From Radicibacter daui (GTDB lineage: Bacteria; Pseudomonadota; Alphaproteobacteria; Radicibacterales; Radicibacteraceae), in assembly GCA_030657355.1 (NCBI GenBank), contig CP131056.1:2996501-3060500 (forward strand): a stretch of DNA of 64,000 bases. Reading direction: 5' to 3'. Shown here piece after piece: positions 2,572 through 56,509 of the stretch (the first letter of the stretch is position 1; every line of letters starts with the position of its first letter). The notes under the pieces are model-generated. The model saw only the letters and a list, made by a program, of their open reading frames with translations, did no database searches and was not told the DNA's origin. The translations under genes and the position numbers were made by a program.

Positions 2572-2586
2572 ATAAGCTCCGATTAT
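2572..2586. promoter_or_regulatory. candidate OxyR dyad over the oxyR start codon
   Basis: In the 287-bp katG/oxyR intergenic region there is an inverted repeat ATAA-N7-TTAT (2572-2575 and 2583-2586) whose right arm overlaps the oxyR ATG at 2585. It has the T-N11-A form of LysR-family sites. The same register is seen at the second oxyR (45784-45820). The other half of a tandem OxyR site, expected at 2550-2564, is poorly matched. The flanking stretch 2538-2590 is AT-rich compared with its surroundings and probably carries both promoters. Confidence 0.4.
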
Positions 2587-3508
2587 GATCAATCTGACCC
2601 TAAAGCAGATGCGCTATGTCGAGGCGCTGGCGCAGCATGGCCATTTCGGCCGGGCGGCAGATGCCTGCGCCATCTCGCAGCCCGCGCTTTCCATGCAGGT
2701 CAAGGAACTGGAAGAAGCGCTGGGCACCGAGCTTTTCGAGCGCGGGCCGCGCCAGGTGCGCCTTACCAGCTTCGGGGAAGAATTCGTCGAGCGGGCGCGC
2801 GAGATCCTGCGCTCTGTCGACGCACTCGGCGATCTGGCGCGCGCCTCCCGCGACCGGCTGGTGGGGCGCCTTCGCATCGGCATCATCCCCACGGTCGCGC
2901 CCTATCTGCTGCCCACTATCGTCGGCAACCTCACCCGCGTGAACGGCGCGCTCGACATCCATGTGCGCGAGACGCTGACACCCCGCCTGATCCAGGAATT
3001 GCAGGAAGGCCGGCTGGATACAGCCATCGTCGCCCTGCCCGTCTCCGAACCCGCGCTGACGGAAGTCGCCCTCTTTACCGAAAACTTCGTGCTGGTCCGC
3101 CCGGGAGAAGAAGAGGGCAAACCGGTGCCGGCGCCGGAAAAGCTACGCGAGATGCGCCTTTTGCTGCTGGAGGAAGGCCACTGCTTTCGCGATCAGGCGC
3201 TGGCCTTCTGCAACATGCAGTCAGCCGCCCCGCGCGAGATCCTTGATGGCAGCTCGCTCTCCACACTGGTGCAAATGGTGGGCGCCGGCCTTGGCATCAC
3301 CCTCATCCCGGAAATGGCCCTCGGGGTTGAAACCCGCTCGGCCGCCGTTTCAATTGCCCGGTTCGGCGAGCCGCAGCCCTCACGCACCATCGGCATGATC
3401 TGGCGCAGCTCAAGCCCGCTCTCCAAGCAGCTGATGCAGATTGCCGAAATGGTAAAGCTGTCGGCCGAAAGTCTGAGTGCCGGCCGCCTGGCGGCTGCCG
3501 GAGCCTGA
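2585..3508 (+). CDS. oxyR: hydrogen-peroxide regulator OxyR (copy 1)
   Basis: LysR-family activator, 307 aa. The N-terminal winged HTH (residues 1-60, LTLKQMRYVEALAQHGHFGR) is followed by the substrate/redox domain. The OxyR redox motif is intact: GHCFRDQALAFC holds Cys200 and Cys209, matching the Cys199/Cys208 disulfide pair of E. coli OxyR in spacing and context. It is divergent from katG, which it very probably activates after oxidation by peroxide. A second OxyR at 45819 has the same cysteines. A dyad over its start codon suggests autorepression. Confidence 0.93.
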   Translation: MINLTLKQMRYVEALAQHGHFGRAADACAISQPALSMQVKELEEALGTELFERGPRQVRLTSFGEEFVERAREILRSVDALGDLARASRDRLVGRLRIGIIPTVAPYLLPTIVGNLTRVNGALDIHVRETLTPRLIQELQEGRLDTAIVALPVSEPALTEVALFTENFVLVRPGEEEGKPVPAPEKLREMRLLLLEEGHCFRDQALAFCNMQSAAPREILDGSSLSTLVQMVGAGLGITLIPEMALGVETRSAAVSIARFGEPQPSRTIGMIWRSSSPLSKQLMQIAEMVKLSAESLSAGRLAAAGA

Positions 3509-23255: not shown

Positions 23256-24164
23256 TCAGTTGTTAAAGTCCGGCGCGTTTTCAAACACATAGCCGGTCGG
23301 TCCAATCCAGCGAGAAAAGGCTTCCACAACCTCGGCCGGCAAAGGCTGGCTATCCAGCAGGGCATCGACCGCAGCGATCAGCTTTTCGCCCACCTGCCCC
23401 CGCGAACAGGCCGTACGGACATCACGATAGATGGGGTCACCTGCGGCCGGGGCGCTCAGCAGGTCAAGATCGAGATTCTGGCTGGCCGCCAGATAACGCA
23501 CCTCGAACGGATAGCCGAACATGTAGGTCAGCCGGCCCAGCGCCATCATGCGGACCGCGCTTTCGCTGCTATCGACAGTGTAGAGCGTTTCGCCCGGCAC
23601 CCGTGCGGCAATCATGCCATTGATCGCGGTGGAATAGACACGCTGGTCCACAAACCCGCCGGCCAATCTGCGGTCATTGCCAAGCGCCACCAGATCCAGC
23701 CGCTGGTCCGCGCTCATATAGGGTGCAAAACGCGCGGCATCCTGCCGGCGGTACAGCACACGGCCGGTCTCCAGCCGCCATCGGTGGCGGGAGAAGACAA
23801 GCACCTTCTGCCGCTCGGCCGTATAGAGAAGCGACACGGCGCAGACGCCGTCCCTCTTCGCGGCATCGATCATCACCCGTTGCAGGCTGGCATCGCGCTC
23901 CTGCTGATTGAAGCCTTGCAGGGACTGCATGAAGTAGCGCAGCAGGGTATCGCCGGTTCCCTGGCCGGCATCCGGCCCGGTGCGGATATGGGATGGCGGC
24001 AGGTCAAGCAGGTACCAGTCGACCTGCCGCAGGCCGGCCTGCGGTTGTTGCTGAGCATCGGCCCGCACCGCCAGGGCGCCAAACAGAACCGGCAGCACCA
24101 GCAGCGCCAGGAAGGGGCGGGACCCGCACAGCCGCTTCAACAATCCGGTCGCCACAGGCAGCAT
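23256..24164 (-). CDS. periplasmic solute-binding-like protein, tandem paralogue 1
   Basis: 302-aa exported protein with a signal peptide (hydrophobic 16-35, cleavage near ADA at 37) and then a family-3-like periplasmic binding fold. Shared with the three upstream neighbours are WY (50-51), GPDxGxG, Cys108 in DGVC, TAER, RWRLET, the run ESAVRMMALGR followed by YMFGYPFEVRY, Cys253 in TACSRG, and a C-terminal RW. From memory it resembles the uncharacterised TIGR02285-type proteins; no function is known for them. This copy is the most diverged around the first motif (DLPPSHIRTG). Start ATG with GAGGTGG upstream. No transport permease or ATPase is adjacent. Confidence 0.8.
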   Translation of the reverse strand: MLPVATGLLKRLCGSRPFLALLVLPVLFGALAVRADAQQQPQAGLRQVDWYLLDLPPSHIRTGPDAGQGTGDTLLRYFMQSLQGFNQQERDASLQRVMIDAAKRDGVCAVSLLYTAERQKVLVFSRHRWRLETGRVLYRRQDAARFAPYMSADQRLDLVALGNDRRLAGGFVDQRVYSTAINGMIAARVPGETLYTVDSSESAVRMMALGRLTYMFGYPFEVRYLAASQNLDLDLLSAPAAGDPIYRDVRTACSRGQVGEKLIAAVDALLDSQPLPAEVVEAFSRWIGPTGYVFENAPDFNN

Positions 24165-24237
24165 GCTGACCCCACCTCAAGCGGTTTTTCAACATCCGCC
24201 AGTATGCAGCGGGTGACAAAAAACAGCCAGATGGACG

Positions 24238-25158
24238 TCAGTTGGTTACCGCCGGCGCCACCGTAAACAGGCGCGGCTCCGTTTCCACCTCCACCGCTCC
24301 GCGCCAGCGGCGGCTGGCCTCGCCGATCTCGTCGGTGGTGGGCTGGCGATCCAGCAGGGCATCGATGGCGGAGATCACTCTCGTACTGACCGGCCCCTTG
24401 GAACAGGCAATGCCGCCATCGACATAAAGCGGATCGCCCACCGCCGCGACCGATGCCAGCTTCAGTGCTTCGCGCTGGGTGTCGTTGAAGTAACGCAGCT
24501 CATAGCCATAGCCGAAGGTGTAATCCGCCCGGCCCAGCTCCAGCATGCGAAAGGCGCTTTCGGACGAGTTGACCTGCAGCAAGCGGTCCTGCCGACCGGA
24601 CTGCTCGCGCACATAGCGGTCGATGGCGCCGGTATAGCTGCGCTTGGCGACAAAAACTCCGGTCAACTCCGCGTCATTGAGCATGGCGGCCAGATCGATG
24701 CGGCCATCCGCCGTCATGAAGCGGGCATAAAGGTCCTGACGGTCCGGGCGCAGCATCACGCGGCTGGTCTCCAGCCGCCAGAAATGCTGGGCATAGATCA
24801 GCGCCGCTTCCCGTTCCGGCGTGCGCAGCATGGTGATGGAACACACGCCGTCCTTGACCGCCATGTCAGCCATCAATCGCGAGGGAGAGGCCACGACCTT
24901 TCTGTTCTGGAATTCGTCCAGCCCGGCCATGAATTGCCTGAGCCGGGCATCCGCCGTTCCCTTGCCGGTGTCGGGCCCGCTCAGGATGTAGATCGGCGGA
25001 AAGTCGAACACGTACCAGTCTACCGCCGGCCGCTCCTCCGCGCGGCCTGCTGCGGAAAGCAGCACACAACACGCGCCAAGAAGGACCGCCGTTGCGGCCC
25101 GCGAAAGGCGGCAGCGCACATCAGACCCGATCAAAAACAAGGGTTTGGACCGTGTCAA
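24238..25158 (-). CDS. periplasmic solute-binding-like protein, tandem paralogue 2
   Basis: 306-aa exported paralogue. The hydrophobic signal segment (residues 22-38) contains two adjacent Cys but no convincing lipobox. Family landmarks are WYVFDFPP (48-55), GPDTGKGTAD, Cys106, TPER, FWRLET, SSESAFRMLELGR, YTFGYGYELRY and Cys252 in IACSKG. The start is uncertain: a TTG at 25158 has GAGGGG only 3 bases upstream, and a GTG at 25119 would give a tidier signal peptide. It is 73 bp from paralogue 1 and 122 bp from paralogue 3. Confidence 0.78.
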   Translation of the reverse strand: MTRSKPLFLIGSDVRCRLSRAATAVLLGACCVLLSAAGRAEERPAVDWYVFDFPPIYILSGPDTGKGTADARLRQFMAGLDEFQNRKVVASPSRLMADMAVKDGVCSITMLRTPEREAALIYAQHFWRLETSRVMLRPDRQDLYARFMTADGRIDLAAMLNDAELTGVFVAKRSYTGAIDRYVREQSGRQDRLLQVNSSESAFRMLELGRADYTFGYGYELRYFNDTQREALKLASVAAVGDPLYVDGGIACSKGPVSTRVISAIDALLDRQPTTDEIGEASRRWRGAVEVETEPRLFTVAPAVTN

Positions 25159-25280
25159 AGTCCCCTCAGGGGCAAGAGCCGGAGATGAATGGCAATTCTC
25201 TCAAATTGCGGCGAATTCCGCCAGATGACCTTTTGGTTACCGTCATTGCCGCCCGATGGCCCGCCGGACAGCACCTGCCG

Positions 25281-26153
25281 TCAGGACCGCTCGCCCACCA
25301 TGGCAAGCGGTCCGGTCTCCAGTTCCAGCTCGTCTTCATGCGTCCAGCGGTGGCTGGCCCGCTGCACATCTGCCGGTAGCGGCTCCTCCAGGAGGGCATC
25401 CAGCGCTTGCAGCACCTGCTCGCCCAGCGCCCCGCGCGAGCAGGCAAAGAACCCGTGCTGCCAGGCGGCATCCCCCAGTGCTGGCGCGCTTGCCACCGCG
25501 ACACCCTTTTTCTCCAGCGCGTAGCGCAGTTCGAAGGAATAGCCGAAGGCATAATCGAGCCGGCCAAGCTCCATCATCTTGAGCGCACTTTCCTGCGAGG
25601 AAAGCGCAGTCACCACCGCGGACCGGCTGACGGCAGCCAACGCTGTATCGATGGCCGGAGTGTAGCTGCGGCCAGCGACATAACCGCCGGAAAGGCCGGC
25701 ATCACTCAGCAGCGACACGGTATCCATGCGGCCATCCGGCCGGATGTGACGCCTCAGCGACGCGCGCTCCGCATCCATGAACACCACCCGGGCCAGCGCA
25801 ACGCGCCAGGCATGATGGCTGAAGATCAGCTGCTTCATCCGCTCAGGCGTCGCCAGCACGGTGGGCGCGCAGATATCGTGATAATGCGCACTGTCCTGCT
25901 CCAGCCGCAAAAAGGTGGCCGGCAGGAGGCGATGGTCAAACTGCGGCATACGGCCGATCAGATAATGAAGCACCACATCGGCGCTGCCGGTGCCGACATC
26001 AGGTCCGTCGAGGATGGAGAGCGGAGCAAAGTCCGGCATATACCAGCGCACGACAGGCCGATCCCCAGCCCGCGCCGGCTGAATGCCGGCAAGGCCGGCC
26101 AGCACGATCCACACAGCGGGAACAAAGCCAAAAATTATAGTAAAAACCCGCAC
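25281..26153 (-). CDS. periplasmic solute-binding-like protein, tandem paralogue 3
   Basis: 290-aa exported paralogue starting at GTG with GGAG 5 bases upstream. The signal peptide is residues 1-29 (cleavage after ARA). Landmarks are WYMPDFAP, GPDVGTGSAD, Cys95 (HDIC), TPER, AWRVALARVV, SSQESALKMMELGR, YAFGYSFELRY and Cys238 in FFACSRG. It is the most diverged of the four around the middle but keeps every shared landmark. A 188-bp partly AT-rich gap separates it from paralogue 4, so it may have its own promoter. Confidence 0.78.
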   Translation of the reverse strand: MRVFTIIFGFVPAVWIVLAGLAGIQPARAGDRPVVRWYMPDFAPLSILDGPDVGTGSADVVLHYLIGRMPQFDHRLLPATFLRLEQDSAHYHDICAPTVLATPERMKQLIFSHHAWRVALARVVFMDAERASLRRHIRPDGRMDTVSLLSDAGLSGGYVAGRSYTPAIDTALAAVSRSAVVTALSSQESALKMMELGRLDYAFGYSFELRYALEKKGVAVASAPALGDAAWQHGFFACSRGALGEQVLQALDALLEEPLPADVQRASHRWTHEDELELETGPLAMVGERS

Positions 26154-26341
26154 AAATACTCCAGGAACCTGTTTAATCGCGAAAGCAAATTACTATCTTA
26201 GGCATCAACAGCTGCTTCAATTTTAAAAAAAGCAATGCTCCGGTGCGTGAACAGCATGGCAGCATCGCCGAAATATCGACTGAACCGTCCGGGCCGGCAG
26301 AAGAATGACAGGTTAGTCAGAAATAAGAGCGCGTTACTCTG

Positions 26342-27268
26342 CTACTGCTGCCCCGGCCCTCGCGAGAGCACAAGCGACAGCTCTTCGGGCCGCGTCCAGC
26401 GATAGCTTGCCTGCAGCGTCGAGGGCGGTGGCGGGGCGGCATCCAGCACGTCGTCCAGTGCCGCCAGCAGCGCTTCGCCAACCGCCTCCTTCGAGCAGGC
26501 GATATGCGCCTCCACCACTTCGGGATCGCCGGCCGCGCCGGCGCTTGCCAGCGGCATCCCATTGCCGCGGCGATGCAGCAGGTAGCGCAGCTCGAACGGA
26601 TAGCCGAAGGTGTAGTCGACACGGCCAAGTGCGAGCATCTCCACCGCCCCTTCCGAGCCGGTCACCGCCCAGCCGCCCCGGCGCTGCTTGAGCAAAGCAA
26701 TGGCAGCATCGATGGCCGGGGTATAGGAGCGACGGTCGATATAACCGCCCTGCAACGTCTCGTCCCGGGCCAGCCCTGCCACATCGATCTGTCCATCCGC
26801 TGCGCGGTAGAGGTTGATCGAGGGGGCAAGCCCTTCCGGATAAATCACCCGGGTGGGCTGCACGCGCCAGAAATGGCGGCTGAAGGCCATGAATTTGGCG
26901 CGTTCCGCATTGGGAATGACACTGGTCGTGCAGGCCCCCTGCTCACGGGCGATATCCGTCATCATGCGCGAGATGCTGGCCGTCACGATGCGGTGGCGGA
27001 ACTGCGGCAGCACGCTGATGAAATAGCTGAGCCAGACATCGCCATTGCCGGTACCGGTATCCGGCCCGGAGAGGATGAAGACCGGCGGAAAATCGAAGAT
27101 GTACCAGCTGATCTGCGGCGCGGAGGGCCGCCGTTGCTGCGCCCCGGCCGGAATTGCCAGCAGCGCCGCTGCGAGACCCGCAAGACAGAAGCCGAGGACA
27201 GATCGCCGCAAGCGCTTCCCCGCGCCGCCGGCCTTGCTCCTGTGCTTCCGCCGCAGCGACAACCGCAT
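26342..27268 (-). CDS. periplasmic solute-binding-like protein, tandem paralogue 4
   Basis: 308-aa exported paralogue with a basic N-terminus (MRLSLRRKHRSK) and hydrophobic segment 23-40, cleavage after AGA. Landmarks are WYIFDFPP, GPDTGTGNGD, Cys113 (QGAC), NAER, FWRVQPTRVI, GSEGAVEMLALGR, YTFGYPFELRY and Cys258 in HIACSK. The ATG at 27268 is used because GGGAGG lies just upstream; an in-frame ATG 82 codons earlier would remove the signal peptide from the terminus. It is the first gene of the four-gene array and divergent from an Lrp-type regulator 284 bp away. Confidence 0.8.
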   Translation of the reverse strand: MRLSLRRKHRSKAGGAGKRLRRSVLGFCLAGLAAALLAIPAGAQQRRPSAPQISWYIFDFPPVFILSGPDTGTGNGDVWLSYFISVLPQFRHRIVTASISRMMTDIAREQGACTTSVIPNAERAKFMAFSRHFWRVQPTRVIYPEGLAPSINLYRAADGQIDVAGLARDETLQGGYIDRRSYTPAIDAAIALLKQRRGGWAVTGSEGAVEMLALGRVDYTFGYPFELRYLLHRRGNGMPLASAGAAGDPEVVEAHIACSKEAVGEALLAALDDVLDAAPPPPSTLQASYRWTRPEELSLVLSRGPGQQ

Positions 27269-27552
27269 CGGCGCCTCCCTTTTCTGCCGGCTGCAGACGG
27301 GAGCGCCGCCCACGTCTTTCGAATGACGTATAAGATATTGCGAAATAACACCGCGTCCAGGCAAGCATCCTCCGGTATGACCCGGCAGGCGGCAACAAAA
27401 GAAAGGCCCTCCATGGATATAACGCAGCCCCACCGGCAGTGCTTGCCGCCCCGCTGGCAGAGTTGCACCATGGCGGCGCCCGATCAGGATTTCTTCCCCC
27501 TGCTCGTCCCCCACCCGCCGCTTCGTGAAAAGGCAGGAGCCCGACCCCGGCC

Positions 27553-41555: not shown

Positions 41556-42062
41556 ATGAGCCATGACACCAATATCCCTCTCGGCGAGGCCGGTCAGGGA
41601 GAACATCATCCCGCCGCCAGCCGCACGCGCCAGATGATGCCCAACGGCCGCCTGCGCCCCGATGGCCTCGACGAAGCGCTGATCACCCGCGTCGTGTACG
41701 GCTTTTATGACGCGGTGCGCGAGGACGCGCTGATCGGCCCGGTCTTCGCGGATGTAATCGCCGACAGCGCCTGGCCGGACCATCTCGCCACCATGGTGGA
41801 TTTCTGGTCTTCCGTTCTGCTTGGCACCCGGCGTTATGACGGCCGCCCGATGCCCAAGCACATGGCGCTGCCGCAGCTGGCGGACGAGCATTTTACGCGC
41901 TGGCTCGAACTTTTCGGCCAGACGGTGCATCGCCTGTGCCCGGAAGATGCCGCTGCCCTTTTCATCGACCGCGCCGAACGCATCGCCCAGAGCTTCCGCA
42001 TGAATCTGGCCTATTTCCGGGGCGGCGACCCGATGGCGGTAAAGCCGATGCTAATCAAATAA
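41556..42062 (+). CDS. group III truncated haemoglobin
   Basis: 168-aa globin of the group III truncated type. After a ~35-residue polar N-terminal extension come VYGFYDAVREDALIGPVFADV (B/C helix region), WPDHLATMVDFWSSVLLGTRRYDG (E helix region) and MPKHMALPQLADEHFTRWLELF, which carries the proximal-His region. Group III globins are found in microaerobic or oxidative-stress contexts, with roles in oxygen or NO chemistry. The gene stands alone before the AT-rich patch. Confidence 0.88.
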   Translation: MSHDTNIPLGEAGQGEHHPAASRTRQMMPNGRLRPDGLDEALITRVVYGFYDAVREDALIGPVFADVIADSAWPDHLATMVDFWSSVLLGTRRYDGRPMPKHMALPQLADEHFTRWLELFGQTVHRLCPEDAAALFIDRAERIAQSFRMNLAYFRGGDPMAVKPMLIK

Positions 42063-42093
42063 AGCATAATAATAACGTTAATAATTACACGCT

Positions 42094-42510
42094 TTATTCG
42101 ACATCACCTGACCCTCTACCCAATTGAAAAACAATAGCCATAGATATGTGAATGCCCATCAAAAAACCCACATTATACAAAAAACCGAAATGAAACGTGG
42201 GATCTCCATATACATGGAACTTCAACACGTCATAACTTACACCCAACCCAATACTGTGAAAAAATCCCGCCAAAAACCCAACAATACATGAAAAAGGTGC
42301 CGCCATCCCACTCAGAATGCCAACTATTAACCCAGGATGATCGCTCATTCTCACACCAGTGGAATAACTATCGACGATTTCCTGATATTCAAAAGGAGTG
42401 TTTATGAAAAAAATCTTATAAACTAACAGAAATACTGAATACGCAGCCGATATTGTCAAAAAAAGCTTAAGACAGATCAGAAGCACACGCATTGGGCACC
42501 AAGCATTCAA
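42094..42510 (-). CDS. hypothetical small membrane protein in an AT-rich patch
   Basis: 138-aa protein I do not recognise. It has three hydrophobic segments at about 7-32, 58-85 and 107-131, a polar loop (EYQEIVDSYSTGVRMSDHPG) and a short charged C-tail. The gene and its flanks (about 42063-42590) are strikingly AT-rich with poly-A/T runs, unlike every neighbour, which suggests recent acquisition. No clear ribosome site is seen; an ATG six codons in (42492) is an alternative start. The gene may be real, because the frame stays open through AT-rich DNA and the protein has coherent membrane segments, but it is unproven. Confidence 0.55.
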   Translation of the reverse strand: MNAWCPMRVLLICLKLFLTISAAYSVFLLVYKIFFINTPFEYQEIVDSYSTGVRMSDHPGLIVGILSGMAAPFSCIVGFLAGFFHSIGLGVSYDVLKFHVYGDPTFHFGFLYNVGFLMGIHISMAIVFQLGRGSGDVE

Positions 42511-42582
42511 TGAAAAACCAGAAAAAGTATAAAATTTGAACCTCTTAAAAATGGTTAATCCCCACGCAAAACGATCAGAAAA

Positions 42583-43626
42583 TTATACCTTCCTCTCTAA
42601 GCATGCAGATTCCGCCCGCCCGGTATAACGGCCATAATTCTCCCGCAGGCTGAAACCATGGCGATGATAAAAAGCCATGGCTTCGGCATTGGCATGACGC
42701 GTCTCCAGCCAGAGCTGGCGATACCCGAGTGCCCGGGCATTGGCCTCCAGCGCCGCAAGCACCGCACTGCCGATACCGGCGCGCGGGGTGGCAGCATACA
42801 TGCGCTTGATCTCCCCCACCTCTCCCGACGGAACCCCTGCTGCTTCCAGCGGCAACAGGGCACCACAGCCGGCGGGCGCGTCACCGAGGCGGGCGAGCAG
42901 AAAGGCGCTGCGGGCATCACCCTCCTGCCAGCCGGCAAACCCGGCACGCCCGTCGCTGCCGAAACGGCGGCCAAGCTCGTCTGACAGGGCATCCAGCAGC
43001 GGCGCGGCCGCCGGAAAAGAAGGTGCCGAACGCTCCACGACCAGCCCCGGCGGCAGGGTAAGGCCGGAAAGGTGCTTGTAGAAGATATGCGTCGTCTCCG
43101 GCACGCCCTCAAAAGAAAGCGCATAGGCCGGAATGGAGCCGGAATAGATCCAGCCCAGCCGCCGGTAGAGCCGCTCGGCCACCGCGCCGCCGGTATCCAG
43201 CACCAGCGTGGTGCGACCTTCGCGCAGCGCGCGGGCTTCTGCCGCCTTCATCAGGGCTTCGGCGATGCCGCGGCGCCGGGCGGCAGGATGCACCAGCAGC
43301 TTGGAAATTTCGGCGCGCTGCACCCCGTTGGGCATGCCAGAGGGCACCAACTGTACTGTTCCGGCCAGACGGCCCTGCCAGCGCGCGGCAAACAGGATAC
43401 GCCCGCCAACGGCGAGAGAGCCCTCCAGTCCGCTCCAGAACGCTTCCATTGCCGGATAGTCGTGCGGCAGCACGAAGCCGACACCGGCGCCCAGTTCCAC
43501 GCAGGCGGCCAGCAGCGTGCAGAATTCCGGCACGGCATGTCGCAGCTGGGCAGCGCTCCATTCCTCGATCACGAAATCGGTTTTTTCGGCAGCAGCAGCC
43601 GGGTTGGCAGCGGGGGCGAGCGACAT
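42583..43626 (-). CDS. tandem double-GNAT N-acetyltransferase
   Basis: 347-aa protein with two GNAT acetyltransferase domains. Domain 1 (about 15-185) has the acetyl-CoA motif KLLVHPAARRRGIAEALM. Domain 2 (about 190-345) has IKRMYAATPRAGIGSAVLAAL and ends with the LETRHANAEAMAFYHRHGF motif. The ATG at 43626 is chosen, 8 bp after the XRE-cupin stop, so the two form an operon. The regulator's cupin domain and the acetyltransferase may share a small-molecule ligand or substrate. The substrate is unknown. Confidence 0.85.
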   Translation of the reverse strand: MSLAPAANPAAAAEKTDFVIEEWSAAQLRHAVPEFCTLLAACVELGAGVGFVLPHDYPAMEAFWSGLEGSLAVGGRILFAARWQGRLAGTVQLVPSGMPNGVQRAEISKLLVHPAARRRGIAEALMKAAEARALREGRTTLVLDTGGAVAERLYRRLGWIYSGSIPAYALSFEGVPETTHIFYKHLSGLTLPPGLVVERSAPSFPAAAPLLDALSDELGRRFGSDGRAGFAGWQEGDARSAFLLARLGDAPAGCGALLPLEAAGVPSGEVGEIKRMYAATPRAGIGSAVLAALEANARALGYRQLWLETRHANAEAMAFYHRHGFSLRENYGRYTGRAESACLERKV

Positions 43627-43634
43627 GATGGCTC

Positions 43635-44234
43635 TCAGGTCCTGACGATGAAGATGGCGTAAACCGCACCGCTTTCCGGCGGGCAAAGAAACCGGGTGGG
43701 GCCATAGAGGCGCACGCGCAGGCAGTCACCGGCCGTCAACCGGTGGGCCTTGCCTTCGATGAAGAAGTCGAGCTGGCCCTGCTTCAGCCAGATGTGCTGC
43801 TCCAAACCCGCGACCGGTGGCGCGTCGTAACGGATATCCGCGCCGGGCGGCAGCTCGCCCTCGATCACCTCACCCAGCATGTCCGCGCTCGGTGGCGATA
43901 CCAAGCGGCGGCGATACCCCGTCTCGGGATCGATCCAGACCGATTGCGCGGCAAGAGGCATGAAACGGGCGCCCTGGCTTTCCACCTCCGCAATCAGCCG
44001 TGACATCGGCATGCCATAAGCGGCGCAAAGCTTGCCGAGCAGCATGGCAGTCGGGCTCGTCTCCCCACGCTCAAGGCGCGAGAGCGTGGCCCGGCTGATG
44101 CCGCTTGTCTCGGCCAGTTGATCCAGCGACCAGCCCCGCCCCTCGCGCAGCGCACCAAGACGTGCTGCAAGGCGCGAGCCCAGCGGATCATCGGCTGCGC
44201 CTGAAGTAGCGATATCGGAAGCGTTGTTTCTCAT
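43635..44234 (-). CDS. XRE-family regulator with C-terminal cupin domain
   Basis: 199-aa regulator. The HTH_3 domain (about 20-80: LDQLAETSGISRATLSRLER) is followed by a cupin sensor (about 110-195: HIWLKQGQLDFFIEGKAHRL, then TAGDCLRVRL). Regulators of this form commonly control the enzyme gene next to them; here that is the double GNAT 8 bp downstream. The start codon lies inside a perfect dyad (44227-44244), suggesting autoregulation. There is no evident Shine-Dalgarno sequence before the ATG. Confidence 0.9.
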   Translation of the reverse strand: MRNNASDIATSGAADDPLGSRLAARLGALREGRGWSLDQLAETSGISRATLSRLERGETSPTAMLLGKLCAAYGMPMSRLIAEVESQGARFMPLAAQSVWIDPETGYRRRLVSPPSADMLGEVIEGELPPGADIRYDAPPVAGLEQHIWLKQGQLDFFIEGKAHRLTAGDCLRVRLYGPTRFLCPPESGAVYAIFIVRT

Positions 44235-44454: not shown

Positions 44455-44988
44455 TTATTCAGCCAGGAAAGCCTCGGCCTCGATGGCGACCGCCACGGCG
44501 TGGATCACAGAGGCGATGCGCACGGCATCCTGCACGCCTTCCTTGGTGATGCCGCCATTGCGCACGACCTTTTCATGGCTGTCGATGCACAGGCCGCAGC
44601 CATTGACGGCGGAGACGGCGAGCGACCAGAGCTCGAAATCGACCTTGTCGACGCCCGGATTGCCGATGACGTTCATACGCAGGCGCGCCGGCAGCTTGAG
44701 GTAATCCGGCTCGGAGACCAGATGGCCGAAGCGATAATAGATGTTGTTCATGCCCATGATGGCGGCAGAAGCCTTGGCAGCGGCCAGCGCTTCCGGGGAC
44801 AGCTTCGTAGCGGCCTCGGCATGGATCGCCTTCAGCACCGTGGCCTGGCGGGAGGCATAGGCGCTGGCAAGCGCGGTGCCCCAGATCTGCTGCTGGCTCA
44901 GCGTGTTGGACTGCAAGACGCTGCCGATATTGAGCTTCAGGTCCTTGGCATAGTCCGGCAGGGCGGCCTTGAGCGTGTCGATGCTCAT
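44455..44988 (-). CDS. ahpD: alkyl hydroperoxide reductase AhpD (alkylhydroperoxidase)
   Basis: 177-aa CxxC alkylhydroperoxidase. The active motif is [12 protein letters not shown], with the conserved Cys pair and His, and the protein has the full AhpD length. In mycobacteria AhpD reduces AhpC. The ATG at 44988 has GAGGAG just upstream; the 19 in-frame residues before it are unlikely. It lies downstream of ahpC across a 148-bp gap that contains a strong terminator, so its expression is probably partial readthrough. Confidence 0.94.
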
Positions 44989-45054
44989 CGATAACTCCTC
45001 GTCACTTCGCTTGTGGCACTTCACCGGAGGGAGAAGTCGGGGCAAATGCAGGCA

Positions 45055-45101
45055 ATAAAAAGGGCGCGGGCGGCGTTACCGGCACGCCCGCGCCCTTTTT
45101 C
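45055..45101. terminator. bidirectional terminator between ahpC and ahpD
   Basis: The 12-bp stem AGGGCGCGGGCG / CGCCCGCGCCCT (45061-45072, 45085-45096) is flanked by AAAAA on the left and TTTTT on the right. Read leftward it would end the ahpC message 36 bp after its stop, lowering ahpD expression relative to ahpC. Confidence 0.8.
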
Positions 45102-45136
45102 AGGTCTCTTTCCTCAGGGCCGTGAGGCCATCAGGA

Positions 45137-45676
45137 TCAGGCAACCTTGAGGACGTCGTCGCCCTTGTTCCAGTTGCACGGGCACAGCTCGTCGGTCTGG
45201 AAGGCGTCGAGGGTACGCAGGGTTTCCTGCGGGTTACGGCCAACGCTCAGGTCGTTGATGGTGACGTGGCGGATGATGCCTTCCGGGTCGACCACGAAGG
45301 TCGCGCGCAGGGCGACTTCTTCCTGCTTGTCGAGGATGCCGAGAGCACGGGCCAGATCCTTGCGGATGTCGGCCAGCATCGGCGTCTTCAGGCCGTTGAG
45401 GTCGGCATGGTGGGTGCGCCAGGCGTGGTGCACGAACTCGTTGTCGGTGCTGGCGCCGAGCAGAACGGTGTCGCGGTCGGCGAATTCGCCATGCAGGGCG
45501 TCATAGGCCACGATTTCGGTCGGGCAGACGAAGGTGAAATCCTTCGGCCAGAAGAACACGACGGCCCACTTGCCCTTGATGTCGGCGCTGGAGATGTCCT
45601 TGAAAGCGGTCGCCATATCGAGCGAAACGCAGGCCTTCAGATTGAACTCGGGAAACTTGTCGCCAACGGTCAGCAT
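45137..45676 (-). CDS. ahpC: peroxiredoxin AhpC
   Basis: 179-aa typical 2-Cys peroxiredoxin (AhpC/Prx1 type) that reduces peroxides. The peroxidatic Cys is in FWPKDFTFVCPTEI. The resolving Cys region is DELCPCNWNKGDD near the C-terminus, where the CxC pattern is typical of AhpD-linked AhpC. The ATG at 45676 is used rather than a TTG five codons upstream. It is divergent from the second oxyR, with an OxyR-type site between them. Confidence 0.95.
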   Translation of the reverse strand: MLTVGDKFPEFNLKACVSLDMATAFKDISSADIKGKWAVVFFWPKDFTFVCPTEIVAYDALHGEFADRDTVLLGASTDNEFVHHAWRTHHADLNGLKTPMLADIRKDLARALGILDKQEEVALRATFVVDPEGIIRHVTINDLSVGRNPQETLRTLDAFQTDELCPCNWNKGDDVLKVA

Positions 45677-45783
45677 GTTTTCTGCCCCCAAAACTGGAAT
45701 TTCGAAAAGTCGGGAGAAGCGATCCCTCGTTGAGGGTCACTTCGCACATGCGGAAATCTGGGGGCAGCCATTCGATAAATCAA

Positions 45784-45820
45784 ATAGCTTGTTCCAGATT
45801 TTTCAATAGGTTTTTCCTAT
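45784..45820. promoter_or_regulatory. OxyR-type 37-bp tandem operator overlapping the oxyR2 start
   Basis: The stretch reads ATAG-N7-CAGA-N7-ATAG-N7-CTAT, exactly the spacing of the E. coli OxyR consensus (ATAGnTnnnAnCTAT repeated after 7 bp). The right dyad matches 9 of 10 specified bases and the left 6 of 10. The right arm overlaps the oxyR2 ATG at 45819. The site is about 108 bp from the ahpC start, so it could repress oxyR2 and activate ahpC. Confidence 0.65.
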
Positions 45821-46763
45821 GAGCAATATCACGCTGCGCCAGCTTCGTTATCTCGTCGCGCTTGCCGACCACATGCATTTCGGCCGGGCTGCCGAGGCAA
45901 GCCATGTCTCCCAGCCATCCCTCTCCGCCCAGGTGGCGCAGATGGAAGCGGAGCTGGGGGTAAAGCTGGTGGAGCGTTCCAGCCGGCGCGTGCTGCTGAC
46001 CCCTGCCGGGGTGGAAGCCGCCGCCCGCGCCCGCCGCATTTTGCGCGAGGTGCAGGAGCTGGGCGATGCCGTGCTGCGTGACCGTGACCCGCTGGCCGGC
46101 ACCCTGCGTCTTGGCGTCATCCCCACCATCGGCCCCTATGTCATGCCGCGCCTGCTGCCCCGGGTGCGGGAAGCCTACCCGGAGTTGAAGCTCTTCCTGC
46201 GCGAGGATCTGACCGCCAACCTGCTGACGCGCCTGCGCAATGGCGAACTGGATCTTCTAATGCTGGCCCTGCCGGTGGATGAACCGTGGGTGGAAAGCCG
46301 GCCGTTGTTTGAAGACCGCTTCCGTGTCGCGCTGCCTTCCGGCCATCCGCTCGGCCGTTTCAACCGGCTGGAAGAGGCTGACCTCGCCGGCCAGGAAATC
46401 CTGCTGCTGGAAGACGGACACTGTTTCCGCGATCAGGCGCTGGCCATCTGCCATCGCGGCGGTGCCGGCGCGCGCCACCAGTTTGCCGGAACCAGCCTTG
46501 AATCGCTGCGCCAGATGGTGGCGGGCGGCGTCGGCATCACCCTCTTGCCGGAAATTGCCTGCCAGGACCGCACGCCGGGCCTGACGCTGCGCGACTTCGT
46601 GCCGCCCGTGCCTGCCCGCACCGTCGGCCTTGCCTGGCGGCGCGGCGCCCCCGGCATCACCAGCTTCCGGGAACTCGCGGAATTCTTTGCCCGCAACTGG
46701 GTGGATGAAGGTGATCCGGTGGTGATCGAGGATGACGCGGCGCCGGCGGCCATTCGCCCCTAG
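45819..46763 (+). CDS. oxyR: hydrogen-peroxide regulator OxyR (copy 2)
   Basis: 314-aa LysR regulator with N-terminal HTH (LRQLRYLVALADHMHFGRAA) and the OxyR redox motif GHCFRDQALAIC, holding Cys202 and Cys211 at the canonical spacing. It is divergent from ahpC. It differs from copy 1 across most of the effector domain and has a longer acidic C-terminal tail, so it is an old paralogue and not a recent duplicate. Its own start codon lies inside an OxyR-type operator. Confidence 0.92.
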   Translation: MSNITLRQLRYLVALADHMHFGRAAEASHVSQPSLSAQVAQMEAELGVKLVERSSRRVLLTPAGVEAAARARRILREVQELGDAVLRDRDPLAGTLRLGVIPTIGPYVMPRLLPRVREAYPELKLFLREDLTANLLTRLRNGELDLLMLALPVDEPWVESRPLFEDRFRVALPSGHPLGRFNRLEEADLAGQEILLLEDGHCFRDQALAICHRGGAGARHQFAGTSLESLRQMVAGGVGITLLPEIACQDRTPGLTLRDFVPPVPARTVGLAWRRGAPGITSFRELAEFFARNWVDEGDPVVIEDDAAPAAIRP

Positions 46764-55328: not shown

Positions 55329-55877
55329 ATGACCATCACGCCTCATGTCGAAGCCGTCAGCCTCAGCGCCGAGCACAATTTCAGCAAGCCCGTGCAGGAA
55401 ACCATCAAGCTTCTGAAGGGCCTTGGTATCGAGGGCGACGCGCATCTGGGCGTGACGGTGCAACATCTCTACGACAAGGGACGCAACCCCGACCAACCCA
55501 ACCTCCGGCAGGTCCATCTTATCCATGGCGAACTGCTGGATACGCTGAAGGAAGACGGGTTTGCCGTGAGCCCGGGAGCGATGGGCGAAAATGTGACCAC
55601 CCGCGGCATCGACCTTCTGGGCCTGCCGCAGGGCGCGCGCCTTACGCTCGGCGAGGATGCCGTGGTGGAGATCACGGGGCTGCGCAATCCGTGCCACCAG
55701 CTGGACAAGCTGCAGAAAGGCCTGATGGGCCGGCTCGTCTTCAAGAATGAAAGCGGCGAGATCGTGCGCCTTTGCGGCGTCATGGGCATCGTACTGGAGG
55801 GCGGCACGGTGGCAGCGGGCGACGGCATCACCGTAGAACTGCCGCCCTTGCCGCACCGCAAGCTGGAGCGGGTCTGA
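55329..55877 (+). CDS. MOSC domain-containing protein, tandem copy 1
   Basis: 182-aa stand-alone MOSC (molybdenum-cofactor sulfurase C-terminal) protein. The conserved Cys is in ITGLRNPCHQLDK; other landmarks are IEGDAHLG, RQVHLIHGEL and GENVTTRGIDLL. Known MOSC proteins act in molybdenum-cofactor-linked sulfur or N-hydroxyl reduction chemistry; the substrate here is unknown. It is followed 83 bp later by a full-length near-duplicate. Confidence 0.88.
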   Translation: MTITPHVEAVSLSAEHNFSKPVQETIKLLKGLGIEGDAHLGVTVQHLYDKGRNPDQPNLRQVHLIHGELLDTLKEDGFAVSPGAMGENVTTRGIDLLGLPQGARLTLGEDAVVEITGLRNPCHQLDKLQKGLMGRLVFKNESGEIVRLCGVMGIVLEGGTVAAGDGITVELPPLPHRKLERV

Positions 55878-55960
55878 TCCCGCTTCCGGACCTTGCCGAC
55901 GGCCCGGAGAACGACCTGTCAAAGTCGAAACGTTTTTTCGCGCGAGGAAAGCGAAGCCCG

Positions 55961-56509
55961 ATGACCACCACGCCCCGTGTCGAAGCGGTCAGCCTCAGCG
56001 CCGACCACAGCTTCAGCAAGCCGCAGCAGGCGAAGATCAAACTTCTCAAGGGCCTTGGCATCGAAGGGGATGCGCATCTTGGCGTGACCGTTCAGCATCT
56101 CTCACGCATCGCGCAGGACCCGACGCAGCCGAACCTGCGGCAGGTGCACCTGATCCATGGCGAGCTGCTGGATGCGCTGAAGGCGGAGGGGTTTGCGGTA
56201 GGCCCCGGCACAATGGGCGAAAACATCACCACGCGCGGCGTCGACCTTCTGGGCCTGCCGCAGGGCGCACGCCTCAAACTGGGCGAGGATGCCGTGGTGG
56301 AGATTACCGGCCTGCGCAACCCCTGCCATCAGCTGGACAAGTACCAGAAGCGCCTGATGGGCCGGCTGGTGTTCAAGGATGAAACCGGCGAGATCGTGCG
56401 CCTCGCCGGCATCATGGGCATTGTGCTCGAAGGCGGCATGGTGGCGCCGGGCGACAGCATCGCCGTAGAGCTGCCGCCGCAGCTGCATCGGAAGCTGGAG
56501 CGGGTCTGA
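55961..56509 (+). CDS. MOSC domain-containing protein, tandem copy 2
   Basis: 182 aa, colinear without gaps with the preceding MOSC protein; by hand about 34 of 182 positions differ. The active Cys (GLRNPCHQLDK) is kept. The main difference is a block near residue 48 (LYDKGRNPD against LSRIAQDPT), which may alter substrate choice. The ATG at 55961 gives the same N-terminus as copy 1; the leaders before both ATGs also look alike (GAA-rich, then GCCCG before ATG), consistent with tandem duplication including the ribosome site. Confidence 0.88.
   Translation: MTTTPRVEAVSLSADHSFSKPQQAKIKLLKGLGIEGDAHLGVTVQHLSRIAQDPTQPNLRQVHLIHGELLDALKAEGFAVGPGTMGENITTRGVDLLGLPQGARLKLGEDAVVEITGLRNPCHQLDKYQKRLMGRLVFKDETGEIVRLAGIMGIVLEGGMVAPGDSIAVELPPQLHRKLERV

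Follow-up and report, generated by a model that had tools for sequence, protein, structure and literature searches.

An AT-rich island with a single long orphan reading frame between convergent haemoglobin and GNAT genes of Radicibacter daui

The island, its borders and its flanking genes

We analysed a window of 64,000 nucleotides from the alphaproteobacterium Radicibacter daui (the whole stretch from 2,996,501 to 3,060,500 of contig CP131056.1, forward strand), in which a truncated haemoglobin gene and a GNAT acetyltransferase gene converge on a short AT-rich island with an orphan reading frame (Table 1); a gene for an XRE-type regulator is a neighbour at this locus. Over its 520 bases the island has a G+C content of 37.1%, against 64.7% for the 64-kb window, and in 300-base windows it is the only place in that window where G+C falls below 50%. 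A sequence-only reading of this DNA had described an AT-rich stretch in GC-rich surroundings between the two genes, which these values bear out, with poly-A/T runs at its edges, where we find A/T-rich sequence but no real homopolymer runs. The composition of the island differs from that of its host in the way looked for in horizontally acquired DNA, and a foreign origin is likely.

Table 1. Coordinates of the features at the island, numbered from the first base of the window
Feature	Position	Strand	Remarks
Truncated haemoglobin gene	41556-42062	plus	left flank; Pfam Bac_globin at 20.2 bits (cut-off 21); last codons AT-rich
Imperfect palindrome	42055-42101	minus	spans both stop codons, orphan and haemoglobin
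AT-rich intergenic island	42063-42582	.	between two convergent genes; fitted borders 42040-42611
Orphan ORF	42094-42510	minus	138 aa from the TTG at 42510; three hydrophobic segments; no relative detected
Open-frame extension	42511-42582	minus	24 codons preceding the TTG, none of them ATG, GTG or TTG; reaches the GNAT stop codon in frame
GNAT acetyltransferase gene	42583-43686	minus	right flank; probably two GNAT domains

The composition borders come from a two-composition likelihood fit (ranges within 2 log units, 42033-42054 and 42587-42673), and the AT-rich zone so delimited extends over a few terminal codons of each flanking gene. In the GNAT gene these codons are AT-rich and yet encode conserved residues, and the C-terminus of the protein aligns with that of a distant relative in genome G050 to the second-last residue; judged by this alignment, the end of the GNAT gene is native. 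Comparing the C-terminal tail of the haemoglobin with its 67 relatives gave a longer tail in 50, an equal one in 2 and a shorter one in 15, a hint that the haemoglobin gene may have had its end replaced by the island, the tail being too variable for proof. The AT-rich zone reaches into both flanking genes and the GNAT end is conserved although AT-rich, features that a sharp insertion does not explain. At 67 loci with a related haemoglobin gene (39 of them titled Devosia), tblastn at E 1e-3 detects neither the GNAT gene nor the XRE-type regulator nor the orphan in the flanks searched, some of which are short. At 14 loci that have a related GNAT domain (tblastn, flanks of at most 1.5 kb), the search returned no haemoglobin gene and no orphan.

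As to the earlier statement that no transposase, tRNA or repeat flanks the island, the window holds no tRNA, and comparing 42020-42100 with 42540-42640 gave no exact direct repeat longer than 6 bases; the imperfect palindrome at the haemoglobin and orphan stop codons had been overlooked. No Rfam match reached the gathering score. An exact 8-base repeat inside the two flanking genes, at 41987 and 42709, is taken as chance, and inverted repeats spanning the island match imperfectly (for example, 19 nt at 74% and 14 nt at 79%). Judged by its frames, edge repeats and copy number, the island does not look like an insertion sequence, a MITE or an integron cassette, there being no other long frame in it, no exact direct repeat longer than 6 bases at its edges and no extra copy.

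Folded as minus-strand RNA, the palindrome reaches -16.2 kcal/mol, a value as good as which was seen in none of 200 shuffles (z -3.6); as plus-strand RNA it reaches -5.9 kcal/mol, with 10 of 200 shuffles as good. The exact spaced pattern of its arms occurs once in the genome. Its likeliest role is that of a 3′-end hairpin of minus-strand transcripts. We also considered an ordinary intrinsic terminator at this site; no U-tract follows the palindrome, and a terminator scan finds none in the island.

The orphan reading frame and its predicted product

The minus-strand frame is open for 162 codons, beginning directly after the GNAT stop codon; its first usual start codon, the TTG, lies 72 bases downstream of the GNAT gene on the same strand, and its first ATG, at 42489, would yield a product of 131 aa. 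The sequence-only reading had singled out the 138-residue frame as the only credible gene of the island; open stretches in the other five frames have at most 87 codons. About 9.6 stop codons are expected in 162 codons at the base composition of the island, and an open stretch of at least 162 codons in any of the six frames arose in 5 of 5000 dinucleotide-preserving shuffles of the island, a test done post hoc on a frame already seen. This length beyond chance is the main evidence that the orphan is coding.

The other signs of coding capacity that we considered are weak. Codon periodicity is not significant, the information of base by codon position being matched by 187 of 2000 shuffles, and the amino-acid composition does not differ significantly from a random translation of the same bases (433 of 2000). 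No Shine-Dalgarno-like motif was found at the usual distance from the TTG or the ATG, the hexamer AAGAGG being located 30 bases before the TTG, and no sigma-70-like promoter was found between 41500 and 43800, in a host that may use other promoters. As a separate observation, the GNAT gene and the orphan are in frame with each other and only the GNAT TAA separates them as a stop codon (42511-42585), such that its readthrough would yield a GNAT-membrane fusion.

The predicted protein shows hydropathy peaks at residues 5-23, 61-79 and 110-128. These are the three segments on which the earlier call of a membrane protein had been made; the peaks are present, but their number is no more than a T-rich composition gives. 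The sense strand is 41.7% T, three or more hydrophobic segments appear in 428 of 2000 composition-matched shuffles, and an overall hydrophobicity at or above that of the orphan appears in 737 of 2000. As T-rich codons encode hydrophobic residues and the shuffles match the protein, its three-helix look is no independent sign of function; the shuffles reveal no hydrophobic helices beyond the expectation from composition, and the family searches no homology to a membrane family. Hence, a membrane protein is a plausible prediction for the orphan product, and one that does no better than the composition of a T-rich strand predicts. A single-sequence AlphaFold2 model has a mean pLDDT of 57, and a Foldseek search with it gave no PDB match with E below 0.001 (best E 2.5), results that carry little information with a model of such low confidence. 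An internal repeat in the protein, suggested by 30-base repeats in the DNA, was rejected, being matched by 129 of 500 global and 137 of 500 local shuffles.

Searches for relatives and other AT-rich islands of the genome

The orphan has no family match in Pfam, PHROGs, NCBIfam or PADLOC, in keeping with the earlier remark that it belongs to no recognised family, and no relative among PDB sequences. Likewise, no relative was retrieved by tblastn from 72,556 plasmids or from 50,697 phages, nor by a pattern-plus-tblastn search of viral contigs and 84,980 species genomes, which reaches close relatives only. The search for phage relatives that the sequence-only reading had proposed came back empty throughout (PHROGs 0, phage records 0, viral contigs 0), and with PADLOC also at 0 the protein shows no match to a phage or anti-phage defence family. 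At the DNA level, blastn of the island against E. coli genomes gave no match, and its own genome holds no second copy, the other matches there being 15-18 bases long with E 2.5 or worse.

Whole-genome scans with the orphan covered three overlapping sets (58 relatives, 385 class genomes and 398 phylum genomes), each of which includes its own genome. Weak matches appeared in 5 genomes besides itself among the relatives (E up to 1), in 4 of the 384 other class genomes (E up to 0.02) and in 6 of the 397 other phylum genomes (E up to 0.02), one genome (G110) having a match in both the phylum and the class scans. At the same threshold the reversed orphan protein matched 10 of the 385 class genomes, that is, more than the orphan itself, and we therefore rejected the class-scan matches; this control belongs to the class set, the phylum scan having been run without one. 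Among the single-sequence matches of the phylum scan the lowest E was 1e-4. Six of the weak matches (L022, L023, L024, L158, L159 and L160) were translated, leaving out L016-L020, L025 and those in G495 and G580, and were rejected as looking like unrelated proteins, antisense or broken frames. Going by our reading of the sequences, one resembles a large membrane protein, one an ABC transporter and one the start region of a primase; of the other three, one looks antisense to a biotin-synthase-like gene, one contains stops, and one is a frame of 112 aa that lacks clear hydrophobic segments. In the collections searched, where the order is represented by one genome, that of the window itself, the orphan has no detectable homologue in other species, which makes it an ORFan in this sense.

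To place the island among others of its genome, we sampled 56 spaced 20-kb stretches, amounting to 1.12 Mb or about 22% of the 5.06 Mb, with a G+C content of 63.1%; of these, 0.80 Mb come from the 4.26-Mb contig C1 and 0.32 Mb from the 0.80-Mb contig C2, which is over-represented. Fourteen segments fell below 45% G+C in 500-base windows, two of which (L105 and L143) were dropped, as they contain masked N to which we ascribe the low value. Five of the remaining 12 (7 on C1, 5 on C2) are at 37% G+C or less (3 on C1, 2 on C2), and most of the others are milder; only about three chromosomal islands in 0.8 Mb are thus as AT-rich as the one under study. The island is one of a class in its own genome, and with AT-rich islands not rare there, no special entry route needs to be invoked for it.

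Among the contents of these segments are short AT-rich genes for which no Pfam family passes its cut-off, together with a GSCFA/methyltransferase pair. An AT-rich island on C2 (L141:11689-14253, at about 111.7-114.3 kb) codes for a PADLOC-matched pair of the type III-A retron models, a reverse transcriptase (E 1.7e-120) and a PRTase (E 5e-80). A parallel to the locus in form is L134:1932-2294 (minus strand), an isolated short gene of 41% G+C coding for 120 aa, which like the orphan is an AT-rich gene among GC-rich ones with hydrophobic segments, here judged by eye. Unlike the orphan, it has a relative, on the 4.6-kb mobilizable Klebsiella plasmid NZ_CP055165.1 (33% identity, E 1e-12), and the two proteins are not homologous (best blastp E 5.5). 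For another short AT-rich gene (L119:4238-4759) we found no plasmid relative.

Origin of the island and role of the orphan

We compared the orphan with the AT-rich ORFans of bacterial genomes treated by van Passel, Marri and Ochman (2008; PMC2275313). There, E. coli ORFans are described as more A+T-rich than other acquired genes and as characteristically short, the study uses presence and absence across strains, and work is cited that assigns phages a lesser role in carrying ORFans. Short AT-rich ORFans are already well described. The orphan resembles them in being short, AT-rich, single among native genes and without homologues found; the comparison across strains made there contrasts with the one genome of the order in the set searched for our locus.

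On balance, we lean towards regarding the orphan as an AT-rich ORFan of acquired origin that is probably translated, at a low level and from behind the GNAT gene, into a membrane-inserted product. AT-rich, probably foreign DNA would have lodged where two native genes converge and brought with it one short ORFan, which would be a real gene now or have been one recently. Its position on the same strand closely downstream of the GNAT gene, with no promoter of its own found, suggests that it may be transcribed as the distal gene behind GNAT; such transcripts might end at the palindromic hairpin or be protected by it. Translation from the TTG or the ATG would be weak, neither having a clear Shine-Dalgarno site, and the product may reside in the inner membrane with three helices. 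As for its class, a small accessory protein that acts on membranes and descends from a mobile element would be likeliest. Descent from a phage is disfavoured by the lack of any phage or viral relative, as well as by the lesser role of phages in carrying ORFans cited in PMC2275313. If a working gene, the orphan adds another lineage-specific membrane protein to those known from the ORFan pool.

The main rival to an acquired gene, unlikely in our estimate although it merits serious attention, is a non-functional remnant, with AT-rich DNA left over from a mobile element in which a long frame survived by chance. Such a remnant accords with the insignificant codon periodicity, the missing promoter and Shine-Dalgarno site, the lack of relatives, and a hydrophobicity and segment count that shuffles reproduce; it sits poorly with the rarity of a 162-codon frame in shuffled islands, when the other five frames fall so far short of that length. 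More useful is a point of method: long frames in T-rich foreign DNA will often mimic multi-helix membrane proteins through composition alone; hence, calls of an orphan membrane protein in AT-rich islands need a composition-matched null.

A further reading, to which we give little credence, is that of a proto-gene, whereby a T-rich non-coding stretch recently opened into a frame and yields a membrane peptide through the hydrophobic residues that T-rich DNA encodes. It follows the “TM-first” model of gene birth proposed for yeast; Vakirlis et al. 2020 (PMC7005711) report that thymine-rich intergenic regions have widespread transmembrane potential. In Bacillus, taxon-restricted genes have been traced to non-coding sequence (PMC10003748). 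The orphan shares with the thymine-rich emerging frames of PMC7005711 a T-rich sense strand and hydrophobic segments predicted by composition alone, and the missing translation signals would suit an immature gene. It differs from them in being bacterial, in its composition foreign to the host, in having no known ancestral non-coding state and in its 162 codons, which are far above the 25-75 codons of the ORFs in one analysis of PMC7005711. Moreover, with the genome at about 63% G+C, 520 bases of native intergenic DNA at 37% would be unexpected, and we found no non-coding counterpart in an outgroup. More doubtful still is the variant in which T-rich foreign DNA in a GC-rich host gave an early bacterial membrane proto-gene, a counterpart of “TM-first” with a composition-made membrane peptide, perhaps aided by transcription and by an in-frame position behind the GNAT gene.

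Finally, a native fast-evolving gene of an isolated order, with relatives in unsampled genomes and an AT-richness owed to local bias, would suit an order with one genome in the set searched and an AT-rich zone touching the ends of both flanking genes, but is highly improbable given a composition far from that of the genome sample and no trace in the 384 other class genomes beyond control-level matches.

Elsewhere in the window we noted several gene arrangements in their own right. Four consecutive paralogues on the minus strand (23256-27514) match NCBIfam TIGR02285, three above and one below the curated cut-off, and we read this tandem array as a periplasmic-binding-like family. Two LysR regulators (2585-3508 and 45819-46763) have OxyR as their best NCBIfam model, both below the cut-off; one is divergent from a KatG-like gene (84-2342) and the other from AhpC/AhpD-like genes (44455-45691), these names being read from sequence. 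Lastly, two very similar MOSC-domain-like genes stand in tandem at 55329-55877 and about 55960-56509, the former matching a MoaC/MOSC model below its cut-off and the latter judged by eye.
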